From positions 1,134,001-1,198,000 of the forward strand of contig NZ_QYCZ01000001.1 of assembly GCF_003614945.1 (NCBI RefSeq): DNA of 64,000 nt. Reading direction: 5' to 3'. Position 1 is the stretch's first letter. Each line of letters starts with the position of its first letter. This DNA is from Bergeyella cardium (GTDB lineage: Bacteria > Bacteroidota > Bacteroidia > Flavobacteriales > Weeksellaceae). The translations under genes and the position numbers were made by a program. The notes under the pieces were generated by a model. That model made no database searches. It saw only the letters and a program-made list of their open reading frames with translations, and had not been told where the DNA came from. Below are positions 11,894-60,922 of the stretch, piece by piece.

Positions 11894-12955
11894 TTGAAAG
11901 ATATTCGTACGCTCAGCCTTGAAGACTTAAAGGAGTATTTTATACAAATTGGTGATAAGCCCTTCCGTGCAAAGCAGGTTTATGACTGGCTGTGGAGCAA
12001 GAATCTCCACTCATTTGAGGAGATGACGAATCTCTCAAAAAATCTCAGAGAAAACCTATCAAAAGACTTTGTGATTAATCCCATTGCCGTAGATACCCTA
12101 CAAAAATCCAGCGATGGAACGATTAAAAACGGCGTAAAGCTACACGATGGGCTCCTTGTAGAATCAGTACTCATCCCTACCGAAACGCGAACTACAGCCT
12201 GCGTATCTTCTCAGGTAGGCTGCTCATTAAACTGTGAATTCTGTGCAACAGCAAAACTCAAAAGAATGCGAAATCTGGAAGTTGCCGAAATCATAGACCA
12301 AGTAGCATTGATAGACAGGCAAAGCAGACTTTACTTTGGGCGACCGCTCTCTAACATTGTCTTTATGGGAATGGGCGAGCCGATGATGAACTACAAAAAT
12401 GTAGTAGAATCCATACGAAAGATAACCTCACCTGAAGGCTTGGGTATGTCTCCAAGGAGGATTACAGTCTCCACATCGGGGATTCCTAAAATGATGAAAA
12501 TGCTCGCCGATGAAAACCTAAAAGTAAAACTCGCACTCTCTCTACACTCCGCTATTGAGCACAAGAGAAATGATATTATGCCTTTCTCCTCAAAATTCCC
12601 GCTCACCGAGATTATGGATGCGCTTCAATATTGGTATAGACAGACAGGTTCTCCCATTACCTTTGAATATTGCGTTTGGGGAGGGATTAATGATACCGAT
12701 GAAGACATCAAGGCATTGATTAAATACTGCCGACAAGTACCATCTAAAGTAAATCTTATTCAGTACAACCCCATTGGTGAGGGTAAGTATGACCACCGTA
12801 ATATAGAAGCTGAGGAGCGGTATGTACACGAACTCGAAAAGGCAGGGATTACCATCGTTGTAAGGCGTAGCCGAGGTGGAGATATAGATGCTGCCTGCGG
12901 ACAGCTCGCAAACACCCACTCGCGCAAAGAAGCCAATGGCGTGGCAGGCACTTAA
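11894..12955 (+). CDS. rlmN: 23S rRNA (A2503)/tRNA (A37) C2-methyltransferase RlmN
   Basis: 353 residues. Radical-SAM methyltransferase that methylates C2 of adenosine in 23S rRNA and some tRNAs. The iron-sulfur cysteines are C110, C114 and C117 (CSLNCEFC). GEPMMN and the C-terminal catalytic Cys in AACGQLA are present, and the N-terminal region matches the RlmN accessory domain (KPFRAKQVYDWLW). The start is TTG with AAAAGAAAAGA before it; no ATG fits. The last residues (NGVAGT) and the stop lie in sequence resembling the window's repeat modules, so the tail after GQLAN is probably not ancestral. Confidence 0.95.
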   Translation: MKDIRTLSLEDLKEYFIQIGDKPFRAKQVYDWLWSKNLHSFEEMTNLSKNLRENLSKDFVINPIAVDTLQKSSDGTIKNGVKLHDGLLVESVLIPTETRTTACVSSQVGCSLNCEFCATAKLKRMRNLEVAEIIDQVALIDRQSRLYFGRPLSNIVFMGMGEPMMNYKNVVESIRKITSPEGLGMSPRRITVSTSGIPKMMKMLADENLKVKLALSLHSAIEHKRNDIMPFSSKFPLTEIMDALQYWYRQTGSPITFEYCVWGGINDTDEDIKALIKYCRQVPSKVNLIQYNPIGEGKYDHRNIEAEERYVHELEKAGITIVVRRSRGGDIDAACGQLANTHSRKEANGVAGT

Positions 12956-12988
12956 TACAATCTAACAGCCAAAAGCTAGAAGCTAAAA
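12933..12988. repeat. Repeat-module remnant plus heptamers at the rlmN/DUF808 3' ends
   Basis: CCAATGGCGTGGCAGGCA (12933-12950) resembles the hairpin module CCACTGGCGTGGGGAGCA found at 55058. It is followed by CTTAATACAATCTAAC, nearly matching CTTAGTACAAACTAAC after the array at 46714. Heptamers GCCAAAA, GCTAGAA, GCTAAAA follow (12968-12988). The rlmN stop and the DUF808 stop both fall inside this block. Confidence 0.55.
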
Positions 12989-13855
12989 ACCAGCTACCGC
13001 CCGTAGCCTCCTAATCACGCTCACAAAACCATAAACCAATCCCCCACCTGCTAGCCCTGCTCCTGTTTCTATCAAGATTTCGGGGATGCGCCGGTATTCT
13101 TCTGTTATATGATGTATTTGTGGGATATAATGTGCAAAAATCCCCCCTGCTACTAATATTAGCGCTACCGTTCCTATGACTGCAAATGCTCGAATAATAA
13201 TAGGTAAAGCACTTATCAATAAGCGCCCTATCTTCGCCAGCAGTCCTTTATTCTCAGATTTTTTTATAAGGCTAAAACCCAAATCATCCATCCTTACAAT
13301 AAGGGCAACGAAGCCATAAACTCCAACTGTTGCCAGCACAGAAACCACACAAACCGTTATAATTTGCCTTATCAATGGCTCTCCGAGCACTGTTCCTAAG
13401 GCAATAATCACAATCTCCACCGAGAGTATAAAGTCGGTAGATATAGCTTCCTTCACCTTTATTTTTTCTGCGACCATAGGGTCGTTTTCTTCTGCTTTCG
13501 GGGCGTTTTTTTCACTTGCTGAGCCCTCTTTTTTATGGAAGAGATAATGGACAATCTTCTCCACTCCCTCAAATGCGAGATAGAGCCCTCCAAATACCAA
13601 AATCCACTTGATAGCAACGGGATAGATGATGTTTAACAGCAAGGCAATAGGCACTATAATCGCTTTATTTACAAGGGAACCTTGGGTTATTTTCCAAAGT
13701 ACGGGCAGCTCTCTGGAAGAGACAAATCCCGTCGCCTTATTTGCATTTACGGCTAAGTCATCGCCCAATATTCCTGCTGTTTTTTTGGTCGCGACTACCA
13801 CATCGTCCATCAGGCTCGCTATATCGTCCAATACTGCAAAAATTCCTGTTGCCAT
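12983..13855 (-). CDS. DUF808 (YedI-like) inner-membrane protein
   Basis: 290 residues. It begins with the family hallmark MATGIFAVLDDIASLMDDV, then DLAVNANKATGFVSSRELPV. Several membrane helices follow (LVNKAIIVPIALLLNIIYPV; DFILSVEIVIIALGTVLG; ITVCVVSVLATVGVYGFVAL; and two near the C-terminus). The family is widespread and its function is not established. A charged loop (about 115-135) is rich in Lys and Glu. It is convergent with rlmN; the two genes end 27 bases apart in repeat sequence. It appears to be a single-gene unit. Confidence 0.9.
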   Translation of the reverse strand: MATGIFAVLDDIASLMDDVVVATKKTAGILGDDLAVNANKATGFVSSRELPVLWKITQGSLVNKAIIVPIALLLNIIYPVAIKWILVFGGLYLAFEGVEKIVHYLFHKKEGSASEKNAPKAEENDPMVAEKIKVKEAISTDFILSVEIVIIALGTVLGEPLIRQIITVCVVSVLATVGVYGFVALIVRMDDLGFSLIKKSENKGLLAKIGRLLISALPIIIRAFAVIGTVALILVAGGIFAHYIPQIHHITEEYRRIPEILIETGAGLAGGGLVYGFVSVIRRLRAVAGF

Positions 13856-46637: not shown

Positions 46638-46714
46638 CCCCTTAGCACGGCAGCCACACCGTAGCCGGTGAGGCACCCACTAGCGTGGGGAGCACCCCTT
46701 AGCAGGGGAGGCAC
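46638..46714. repeat. Array of 19-bp hairpin modules with constant TAGC loop (4 units)
   Basis: Units start at 46638, 46657, 46676 and 46695, exactly 19 bp apart: CCCCT-TAGC-ACGGC-AGCCA (degraded), CACCG-TAGC-CGGTG-AGGCA, CCCAC-TAGC-GTGGG-GAGCA, CCCCT-TAGC-AGGGG-AGGCA. Stem arms differ between units but match within a unit, while loop and linker are conserved. The array ends in CTTAGTACAAACTAAC. The gap 46569-47129 holds this array, a heptamer tract, one hairpin and the second array at 46999; I see no gene. Confidence 0.85.
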
Positions 46715-46744
46715 TTAGTACAAACTAACCGCACACCGCCAACT

Positions 46745-46793
46745 GCTAGAAGCTAGAAGCCAAAAGCTAGTTGCCAGTTGCCATCAGCCAAAA
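46745..46793. repeat. Heptamer repeat tract (7 exact units)
   Basis: Consecutive 7-mers: GCTAGAA, GCTAGAA, GCCAAAA, GCTAGTT, GCCAGTT, GCCATCA, GCCAAAA. All units begin GCYA. This is the cleanest tract in the window. Confidence 0.85.
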
Positions 46794-46825: not shown

Positions 46826-46998
46826 AAATAACAAAATACTAACAACTATAAAAACGCATTATGCACACAAGTGATAAAGTGCAAGGTTTCTATTTCTTTT
46901 TTATCATTTGAAGAACTTTATCCATCATTGATTTTTTTTGTCTATTCTTGAGCTTACTCGTTATTTAGGTTTAATAGGCTGGCTTAGCTAATGGCTAT

Positions 46999-47064
46999 CG
47001 CTCGAGAGAGCGAGGCACCTTCGCTCGAGAGAGCGAGACACCCTCGCCCGAGAGGGCGAGGTCA
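46999..47064. repeat. Array of 23-bp hairpin modules with GAGA loop (3 units)
   Basis: Units start at 46999, 47022 and 47045: CGCTC-GAGA-GAGCG-AGGCA-CCTT, CGCTC-GAGA-GAGCG-AGACA-CCCT, CGCCC-GAGA-GGGCG-AGGTC. In the third unit both arms changed together (T to C in the left, A to G in the right), preserving the stem. Confidence 0.85.
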
Positions 47065-47129
47065 TCTCGCTTTTCTAATTGCCCAAGAAGGATAGCAATA
47101 TATAACTTTAACAACTCTATCATAGCGAG

Positions 47130-47734
47130 TTAGGCAATTATCACAGGAACATTAAACACTTCTGTTCTTGGTGACTTTAGAAATACTTTGGATGTATTGC
47201 TAAACTGCGTTGTGATGCTCAGCTCGTAGTTGCCTGCGGGGAGCGAGGCGGGGATAAGCACCAAAAGACGAGATGGCTCATTCAGAACAGCCACAGCCTG
47301 GCAGGCACTTACTACATACCATAGCCAGTGAGGCAATTGAATAAGTGCTCCCCACGCCAGTGGGCGCCGAGGAATTCTACTTTGGTTTGGGAGATGGCTT
47401 TTCTTAGCTCTGCACCTTGATTTACATTTACATAGACGCTGTGCTTGTCCTTATCCCAAGTCCTATCGCGGAAGGCTCCCTTGATGGCCGGGCGCATTAT
47501 CACGAGACCTGTATTCACTACATAGCCTTGGAGCACGAGCTCTGTGCTCTTGCGATTAAAGCGGGAAACAATGTCTATTACGGTCTCCTCTTTTATCTCC
47601 ATACCTTCTTTTTTGAGCTCTGCTACAATCTCTGCTATGCTTACGCTCCCTACGCTCGCAGGAACGCCTACAAAATCTGATGGGTCGCTGGTAAGAGGGT
47701 TATCTCTTAGCCACGCTTTTAAAGTATTTTTCAT
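47130..47734 (-). pseudogene. Broken HU-like/DUF4469 DNA-binding protein gene, middle replaced by repeat sequence
   Basis: Two minus-strand fragments belong to one family. The 5' part (47734 to about 47369) encodes the N-terminal HU-like domain MKNTLKAWLRDNPLTSDPSD ... ISQTKVEFLG. The 3' part (about 47287-47130), in a different frame, encodes the DUF4469 C-terminus VLNEPSRLLVLIPASLPAGN ... VPVIIA. Intact relatives run continuously to about 240 residues; here some 40-60 residues are missing. The junction is CCCACTGGCGTGGGGAGCAC plus further repeat sequence, which adds AHWRGEHLFNCLTGYGM and a stop. The 5' piece could still make a 140-residue protein. Confidence 0.75.
47302..47365. repeat. Hairpin-module cluster inside the broken gene
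   Basis: On the minus strand CCCAC-TGGC-GTGGG-GAGCA-CTTA (47364-47342) is a 19-bp module with its CTTA tail. On the plus strand TACCATAGCCAGTG-AGGCA (47317-47335) shares 14 bases with 58378-58391, and GGCAGGCACTTACTAC (47300-47315) repeats the array-end motif. Confidence 0.7.
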
Positions 47735-55056: not shown

Positions 55057-55141
55057 TCCACTGGCGTGGGGAGCATCCACTGCGTGGAGAGCACTTAGAA
55101 ATAATTGCCTCACCGGCTACGGTGCCGGTGAGGCAATTATT
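55057..55141. repeat. Hairpin-module array and 18-bp-stem palindrome
   Basis: TCCAC-TGGC-GTGGG-GAGCA (55057) is followed 19 bp later by TCCAC-TGC-GTGGA-GAGCA-CTTAG. Then comes a palindrome with arms 55100-55117 and 55124-55141 (AATAATTGCCTCACCGGC and its complement, loop TACGGT). Positions 55106-55124 are the exact complement of the unit at 46657-46675. Together with the element at 55213 this accounts for most of the gap 55008-55449. Confidence 0.85.
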
Positions 55142-58267: not shown

Positions 58268-58656
58268 AGCAGCCATCCTAACAGATGGCTGCTCCCTTAT
58301 CCCCCCCCCCACACCTTGCAGGTAATGCTCTTACCCACACCTTGCAGGTGATGCTCTTACCCACTGCGTGGGGATTATACCATAGCCAGTGGGTATTTTA
58401 GCTAAAAGCTAGGAGCTAATTAAACTAAAAAAAGAGGCAATGCCTCCTAAAATTGACCCCACAGGGTCTGAAATTGACCCCCACAGAGGGGGGGGCCTTC
58501 CAATTAGGGATAATAAAAGAAGCAATGCCTCCCCCTTCCAATTAGGGATAATAAAAGAGGCAATGCCTCCCCCATAGGGTAACAGGCAGTAAGCCTAACC
58601 ATACACTACTTACTGCCTACTGCTTACTGCCTACTGCCAAAAGCTAATCGCCAGTA
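58268..58656. repeat. Mosaic of hairpins, direct repeats, homopolymers and heptamers
   Basis: In order: perfect stem AGCAGCCATC / GATGGCTGCT (58268-58293); C10 (58301-58310); two 26-bp copies of CACACCTTGCAGGTRATGCT plus CTTACC; CCATAGCCAGTGGG (58380-58393); G8 (58488-58495); two 40-bp copies sharing CCTTCCAATTAGGGATAATA (58496-58535, 58534-58573, one mismatch); and heptamers GCCTACT, GCTTACT, GCCTACT, GCCAAAA, GCTAATC, GCCAGTA (58615-58656). No gene is visible in 58260-58696. Confidence 0.8.
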
Positions 58657-60741: not shown

Positions 60742-60832
60742 TTTGGCTTCTAGCTTTTGGCTTTTAGCAGTGGGTGGATAGAAAAGCGAGATGGTCTCGC
60801 TCTCTCGGACGAGCGCCGTAGCCGGCAAGGCA
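60742..60832. repeat. Heptamers, GCGAGA hairpin and one 19-bp TAGC module
   Basis: Complement of GCTAAAA, GCCAAAA, GCTAGAA at 60745-60765; hairpin GCGAGA-TGG-TCTCGC (60786-60800); module CGCCG-TAGC-CGGCA-AGGCA (60814-60832) followed by CTTAACC, the same layout as the array at 46638. Confidence 0.7.
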
Positions 60833-60843
60833 CTTAACCTCAT

Positions 60844-60880
60844 AAAAAAATACAGACTTTAAAGGGCTGTATTTTTTTTT
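60844..60880 (-). terminator. Terminator after lptB (symmetrical)
   Basis: AAAAAAATACAG / CTGTATTTTTTT stem with an 11-base loop; A and T runs on both sides allow function in either direction. It lies 33 bases past the lptB stop. Confidence 0.75.
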
Positions 60881-60887
60881 GCTTTTA

Positions 60888-60922
60888 GCTAATTGCCAGA
60901 AGCCAAAAGCTATTAGCTACTA
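60888..60922. repeat. Heptamer tract (5 units) covering the end of lptB
   Basis: GCTAATT, GCCAGAA, GCCAAAA, GCTATTA, GCTACTA. The lptB stop (60915-60913) and its last two Ser codons lie inside the final two units. Confidence 0.8.

Follow-up and report, generated by a model that had tools for sequence, protein, structure and literature searches.

Dispersed hairpin words with a constant loop and foot suggest a REP-like mosaic repeat in Bergeyella cardium

The genome of Bergeyella cardium (1,959,232 bases on three contigs) carries a dispersed vocabulary of short hairpins, here called words, which share a loop and a 3' foot and differ in their stems. On balance, and with slightly better than even confidence, we read them as a mosaic repeat, REP-like and specific to its lineage, for which no transposase was found in the same genome; the words seem to add a branch to an already known class of small bacterial repeats. 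The window analysed is a stretch of 64,000 nucleotides, contig C1 (NZ_QYCZ01000001.1) 1134001-1198000, and coordinates refer to it unless a contig is named. The closest matches of one protein encoded there are from Bacteroidetes MAGs, Riemerella columbina and Amniculibacterium.

The array at 46638-46713 on the plus strand is tiled exactly by four units at a 19-bp period, and a CTTA follows at 46714-46717, a tail or spacer that terminates or links words. By sequence and word table, unit 1 (46638-46656) is CCCCT-TAGC-ACGGC-AGCCA, unit 2 (46657-46675) is word A, CACCG-TAGC-CGGTG-AGGCA, unit 3 (46676-46694) is word B, CCCAC-TAGC-GTGGG-GAGCA, and unit 4 (46695-46713) is word E, CCCCT-TAGC-AGGGG-AGGCA. 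A preliminary description had seen four 19-bp units with matched arms here; the period stands, and units 2-4 each pair at all five positions, but unit 1 is a chimeric, unpaired word, because its 5' arm comes from a CCCCT word and its 3' arm from a GCCGT/ACGGC word. Behind the CTTA lies a block, ACAAACTAACCGCACACCGC (46720-46739, plus strand), that is frequent after arrays and has 17 copies in the genome with up to three mismatches against none in the control. The sequence ACAAACTAACCACACACCGC is often found downstream of arrays together with seven-base repeats (17 copies with up to three mismatches, control 0). Such repeats, AGAAGCY/AAAAGCY/AGTTGCC, follow the block at 46741-46785 on the plus strand, where they are imperfect. 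Seven-base imperfect repeats with a fixed frame and variable inner bases also occur at 12964-12998, 58605-58642, 60742-60768 and 60880-60922, often downstream of arrays, and in Halpernia humi the end of the homologous gene bears a seven-base array that is different.

Further words lie close by. A second plus-strand array at 46998-47071 consists of 23-bp units with the loop GAGA and the arms TCGCTC/GAGCGA and TCGCCC/GGGCGA (RNA fold z -5.0); one of its stem pairs has changed from T-A to C-G, a paired change, and its word type falls outside the TAGC vocabulary. A worn B4 word, GCCACAGCCTGGCAGGCA, occupies 47290-47307 on the plus strand. It is followed by a tail-to-tail pair, made of a worn word A on the plus strand (TACCATAGCCAGTGAGGCA, 47317-47335) and a B1 word on the minus strand (CCCAC-TGGC-GTGGG-GAGCA, 47346-47364).

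The other copies named in the preliminary description are present as described. At 55057-55075 stands a word B variant, TCCACTGGCGTGGGGAGCA (TCCAC-TGGC-GTGGG), and at 55076-55093 another, TCCAC-TGC-GTGGA-GAGCA, with a loop of three and a compensated outer pair (both plus strand, sequence and word table); 60814-60832, also on the plus strand, holds a variant of word A, CGCCG-TAGC-CGGCA-AGGCA, and then CTTA. The imperfect forms at 12933 and 47317 are likewise confirmed, the first as a worn B4 word (12933-12950, plus strand) in the C-terminal tail of the rlmN open reading frame (ORF; TIGR00048), the second as the worn half of the pair just given. To these sites and the GAGA-loop units the window adds an inverted word A on the minus strand at 55106-55124 and a plus-strand array at 58312-58396, in which a B3 word and a worn A word accompany two F words (CACCT-TGC-AGGTR). 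The inverted unit is joined to the words before it by a 12-bp tail-to-tail centre, CTTAGAAATAAT (55094-55105), and by sequence and fold the region 55102-55139 forms a 15-bp perfect fold-back, TAATTGCCTCACCGG / CCGGTGAGGCAATTA, a join that resembles a template switch. Two near-identical 38-bp direct repeats, CCTTCCAATTAGGGATAATAAAAGARGCAATGCCTCCC, are found at 58496-58573, and part of a third copy lies near 58426.

Genome-wide, the preliminary claim of real tandem hairpin modules is borne out. The pattern TRGC-N5-RRGCAC, a search in which the arms played no part, has 98 matches in the genome (1.96 Mb), far above the nine in the reversed control; a frequency no higher than in shuffled intergenic sequence would have spoken against the claim. 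Among the 97 matches read back, 52 have arms that pair at four or five of five positions; when the arms were shuffled 2000 times, 11.6 did so on average and never more than 23. Word A (CACCGTAGCCGGTGAGGCAC) has 66 matches with up to three mismatches and none in the reversed control, and a word related to unit 3, CCCACTGCGTGGGGAGCA, has 19 against a control of 0. In 98 other genomes, word A gives a single match in each of four, all with three mismatches, and a reversed-control match in five. Among the genomes searched, a set with one genome of the genus, the word family is thus confined to its own genome. Exact matches of two words were absent from viral contigs; a search against phages gave no match and one against plasmids two matches (E 0.5). 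A limited literature search found no published description of a TAGC-loop word family. The strand of the words is unevenly distributed across bins along the chromosome.

A catalogue of 233 units, of which 140 are perfectly paired at five positions, was drawn up from 323 kb of stretches picked by pattern or word matches, so its totals are not genome counts; the reversed-sequence control of this search gave seven raw matches. Ten in-gene words were set aside ahead of those counts that rest on 223 units. The units fall into six word families: A (CACCG), B (CCCAC, GCCAC, TCCAC), C (GCCGT), D (CTCGT), E (CCCCT, GCCCT, GCCTT) and F (CACCT). Variants changed on both sides exist (CACTG/CAGTG four times; CGCCG/CGGCG, GACCG/CGGTC, TCCAC/GTGGA and GCCCT/AGGGC twice each), as do the hybrid words CCCCT-TAGC-ACGGC (at 46638) and CTCGT-TAGC-ACGGC. 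With six recurrent families and their variants, the stems are a limited set and do not covary freely; of the preliminary interpretation, the matched arms, the fixed loop, linker and period and the dispersal therefore remain and free covariation of the arms does not. Nor are the arms those of a single REP or MITE family with fixed stems. At C1:438514-438696 three copies at 82-bp spacing each place a word A variant after ACCAACCCARYGGATA, and at C1:938281-938543 a longer repeated unit contains TATTAATTTCAGGAAACCCGTAGCACGGGAGG and T runs, which may act as terminators.

The words form 94 arrays, 38 of them of one unit, and are joined in stereotyped ways. Same-strand neighbours number 110; a direct join links 46 of them, CTTA 24 and ATTA four. 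The 19 opposite-strand neighbours stand tail to tail in 16 cases and head to head in three; A is paired with B in nine of the 16 tail-to-tail pairs, and 12 of them share a 12-bp spacer such as CTTARAAATAAT, so that inverted dimers at a set spacing, as in BIMEs and REPINs, are present here too. Consecutive identical hairpins number two of 129, against 4.5 expected, a difference that is not significant.

Arrays are placed with respect to genes, which were called by a simple longest-ORF rule. Of 54 array 5' ends, 32 are no more than 25 bp from a stop codon or overlap one; of 40 3' ends, two are so placed (Fisher P 2e-8). Near start codons, for which distances under this rule are unreliable, the figures are 7/46 for 5' ends and 0/35 for 3' ends. 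Twelve of 102 clusters fall inside an ORF call, ten of them lone weak matches with three or four mismatches, without which the count is two of 92. The words are thus short palindromic repeats that are extragenic and present in many copies. In several open frames, some of which may not be genes, the stop is supplied by the TAG of the loop or by a later word. The ORF at 11894-12955 is rlmN (TIGR00048 above cut-off, residues 4-344 of 353), and its C terminus, THSRKEANGVAGT, is encoded by worn words; in relatives, rlmN ends in ACGQLANK plus 0-6 residues in all 14 copies read (31 other genomes matched). From this comparison, the coding end of rlmN was probably replaced or invaded by the array. Open frames with putative C-terminal tails made from words were also seen at C1:178917 (PTAWGALTP), C1:224313 (PTAWGAHRTS), C1:1224551 (TAWQAIRP) and C2:93831 (PTAWEPLSRGGTR).

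But how do these words compare with described repeats? REPs of the GTAG and CGTC families, which are associated with TnpAREP/RAYT, are described as short extragenic palindromes in many copies, with inverted dimers and sub-families that differ in their stems (PMC3733652). The words of B. cardium are like them in being short, extragenic and multi-copy, with inverted pairs and families of differing stems. Unlike REPs, they show no terminal GTAG/CGTC foot, carry TAGC in the loop and form tandem 19-bp strings of different words, and no Y1 transposase was found in their own genome. No constant tetranucleotide (GTAG or CGTC) was seen by eye 5' of the arm in the listed flanks; the constant foot is 3', RRGCA. 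Because two REP hallmarks, the foot tetranucleotide and the Y1 gene, were looked for and not found, we do not file the family as REP, but it works like REP/BIME. Its arrays, like BIMEs and REPINs, mix direct and inverted hairpin units in a mosaic and include tail-to-tail pairs; unlike them, they draw on a larger vocabulary, avoid neighbours of the same family and have no known mobilising gene. Dispersed GC-rich hairpins in AT-rich spacers are also known from fungal mitochondria, as GC clusters or double-hairpin elements reported to be mobile; those are organellar and of other sequences.

A RAYT encoded in the same genome was sought and rejected: the Y1 transposase model (PF01797, Y1_Tnp) has no match there, while five of 14 control genomes were positive. 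A reverse transcriptase gave no match in the genome either, and Y2_Tnp, the mark of IS91/Helitron-like elements, gave none there or in the control genomes, and is therefore uninformative. Relatives, however, contain a hairpin of comparable design, with a core CCGTAGG, variable paired arms and the tail ATCTNTGTAGAA, in ten of 149 genomes (seven of 68 genera; control 0). Its arms co-vary, with 139 of 160 pairs matched compared with 87 +- 6 (32 copies from 30 of 41 places, related copies included). Seven of the ten genomes have a Y1_Tnp gene no more than 410 bp from the hairpin, and in three the closest such gene on that contig is at least 39 kb off. Y1_Tnp genes of relatives are adjoined by CCGTAGG-like hairpins with variable stems, and at two loci such hairpins flank the gene left and right in opposite orientations. 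In this bacterial family, REP-type transposases are thus already accompanied by hairpins that keep core and tail and vary the stem, which speaks against the preliminary view that no described element has this design. As described in PMC6006769, TnpAREP subclass 2.6 is mostly from Bacteroidetes, and 'atypical secondary structures' flank the gene and are repeated elsewhere. The CCGTAGG double hairpins, which also adjoin Y1_Tnp genes, may belong to this subclass. The words of B. cardium, by contrast, share neither the core CCGTAGG nor the tail ATCTNTGTAGAA with the class of the relatives, and the two together have no match in their genome, forward or reverse. For known TnpAREP, the described cleavage sites in single-stranded REPs are CT or CA next to the hairpin (PMC8266576); it is suggestive only that the foot GCA-CTTA contains both.

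Under the REP-like reading, every unit is a small hairpin whose loop, mostly TAGC, is constant, as is its 3' foot RRGCA, often with CTTA next. What is recognised and spread would be the single-stranded hairpin with its loop and foot, not the letters of the stem; on this proposal, stems are free to change pairwise or to be swapped and the words could still spread. New words would come in from other places in the genome and attach to existing arrays at GCA or GCA-CTTA, or else meet tail to tail over the 12-bp centre. They would settle in spare DNA, often directly behind stop codons, and once settled the hairpins would decay under little constraint. We infer that a REP-type (HUH) enzyme, since lost or acting unseen, spread the words, with the loop and foot as its recognition marks. 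Against the REP-like reading stand the lack of Y1_Tnp, reverse transcriptase and 5' tetranucleotide matches, and the lack of sequence shared with the class of the relatives. Moreover, Y1_Tnp is widespread in the family in any case: it is matched in all ten CCGTAGG genomes and also in eight of 12 genomes that lack the exact CCGTAGG pattern, and the three genomes with distant genes weigh in the same direction. A structure-addressed repeat would do without a REP-type transposase: some other activity would copy any small hairpin whose loop is of the TAGC type and whose foot is RRGCA(CTTA), the stem being a free label. The genome would in this way accumulate its vocabulary, with words recombined at loop and foot and pasted behind stops. 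We think this improbable.

The main rival to the REP-like reading needs no enzyme of this kind at all. Template switching during replication would make and mend the hairpins, one arm being copied from the other to give paired changes in one step, and where copying jumped from one dispersed word to another, at the TAGC loop or GCA foot that they have in common, hybrids, fold-backs and tail-to-tail joins would result. Template switching is described as able to create hairpin stems and compensatory changes (PMC8794818), and it accounts well for the two hybrid words and the fold-back at 55102-55139; the genome without a Y1-type transposase also fits. The preliminary suggestion of a copying process that keeps inverted symmetry may well hold. 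However, template switching alone leaves the 94 dispersed arrays with their fixed joins unexplained, as well as the 5' ends that face stop codons. The inverted loops that it predicts were not found, the apparent cases being minus-strand readings of ordinary units. Overall, transposase-free template switching explains hybrids and fold-backs but not the stereotyped joins and placement, and we judge it unlikely as the full account.

Could the arrays instead be selected as RNA? As 3'-UTR hairpins, they might protect mRNA, affect ribosomes at the stop or end transcription. The 32 array 5' ends that abut stops agree with this idea, as does C1:1605615, where a stop codon and a T-run terminator flank a word; yet either unit end faces stops and starts. 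The terminator role itself is not apparent at 46657-46713, where AGGCA, GAGCA and AGGCA come after the three hairpins without an immediate T run; elsewhere the words were found partly by their foot, so that the comparison there is not independent; a T run occurs further downstream at a few sites, for example C1:607510. In RNA folding, the arrays at 55057 and 46998 beat their shuffles clearly (z about -5), partly through pairing between units, which tempers their support. The 46638 array folds only modestly better than shuffles (z -1.9), with not all unit hairpins formed, and 47345-47395 is unremarkable (z -0.7). Rfam gave no match at the gathering score in the window or in 11 loci.

The pattern of substitutions also weighs against a selected RNA. 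Covariation was tested on distinct rows only, with common paired variants counted once. In family A, seven doubly changed cells are paired where shuffling gives 3.3 on average (P 0.03), next to 38 one-sided changes; family B has eight against 4.5 (P 0.05) and 35 one-sided, and family E three against 1.7 (P 0.17) and eight one-sided, while C, D and F have no doubly changed paired cells. Within families, covariation is therefore weak; across families, doubly changed cells number 59 against 25.7, with arms that the search had not used. Under selection as RNA, one would expect G-U to be tolerated more readily than A-C, but RNA-breaking A-C mismatches are as common as G-T (55 and 42, P 0.22), and the same is true of the 73 units that lie near stops (21 and 14). 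With more one-sided than paired changes within families and A-C no rarer than G-T, pairing seems to matter when words spread and not afterwards: our reading is that they spread as perfect hairpins and decay later, and the preliminary notion that the hairpin as such is conserved is not upheld. On the Rfam result, the mismatch counts and the within-family covariation, we set a conserved structured RNA aside as quite improbable. Expansion of a single unit by slippage into an ordinary VNTR, to which the exact 19-bp period at 46638 and the tandem-repeat calls would point, is very improbable, plain tandem duplication being contradicted by the neighbour statistics: same-family neighbours number 16 of 129 against 33.3 +- 4.7 expected (0 of 5000 shuffles as low), so that the short, dispersed arrays do not grow mainly by neighbour copying.

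Finally, we turn to what the words suggest about bacterial repeats. An intergenic repeat can, it seems, alter its stem and yet keep its loop, foot and spacing, and such families would consequently be missed by searches for identical sequence. Covariation in repeats of this kind need not indicate a functional RNA. The array at rlmN further suggests that repeats can extend into coding ends, where they may provide new C termini together with stop codons.
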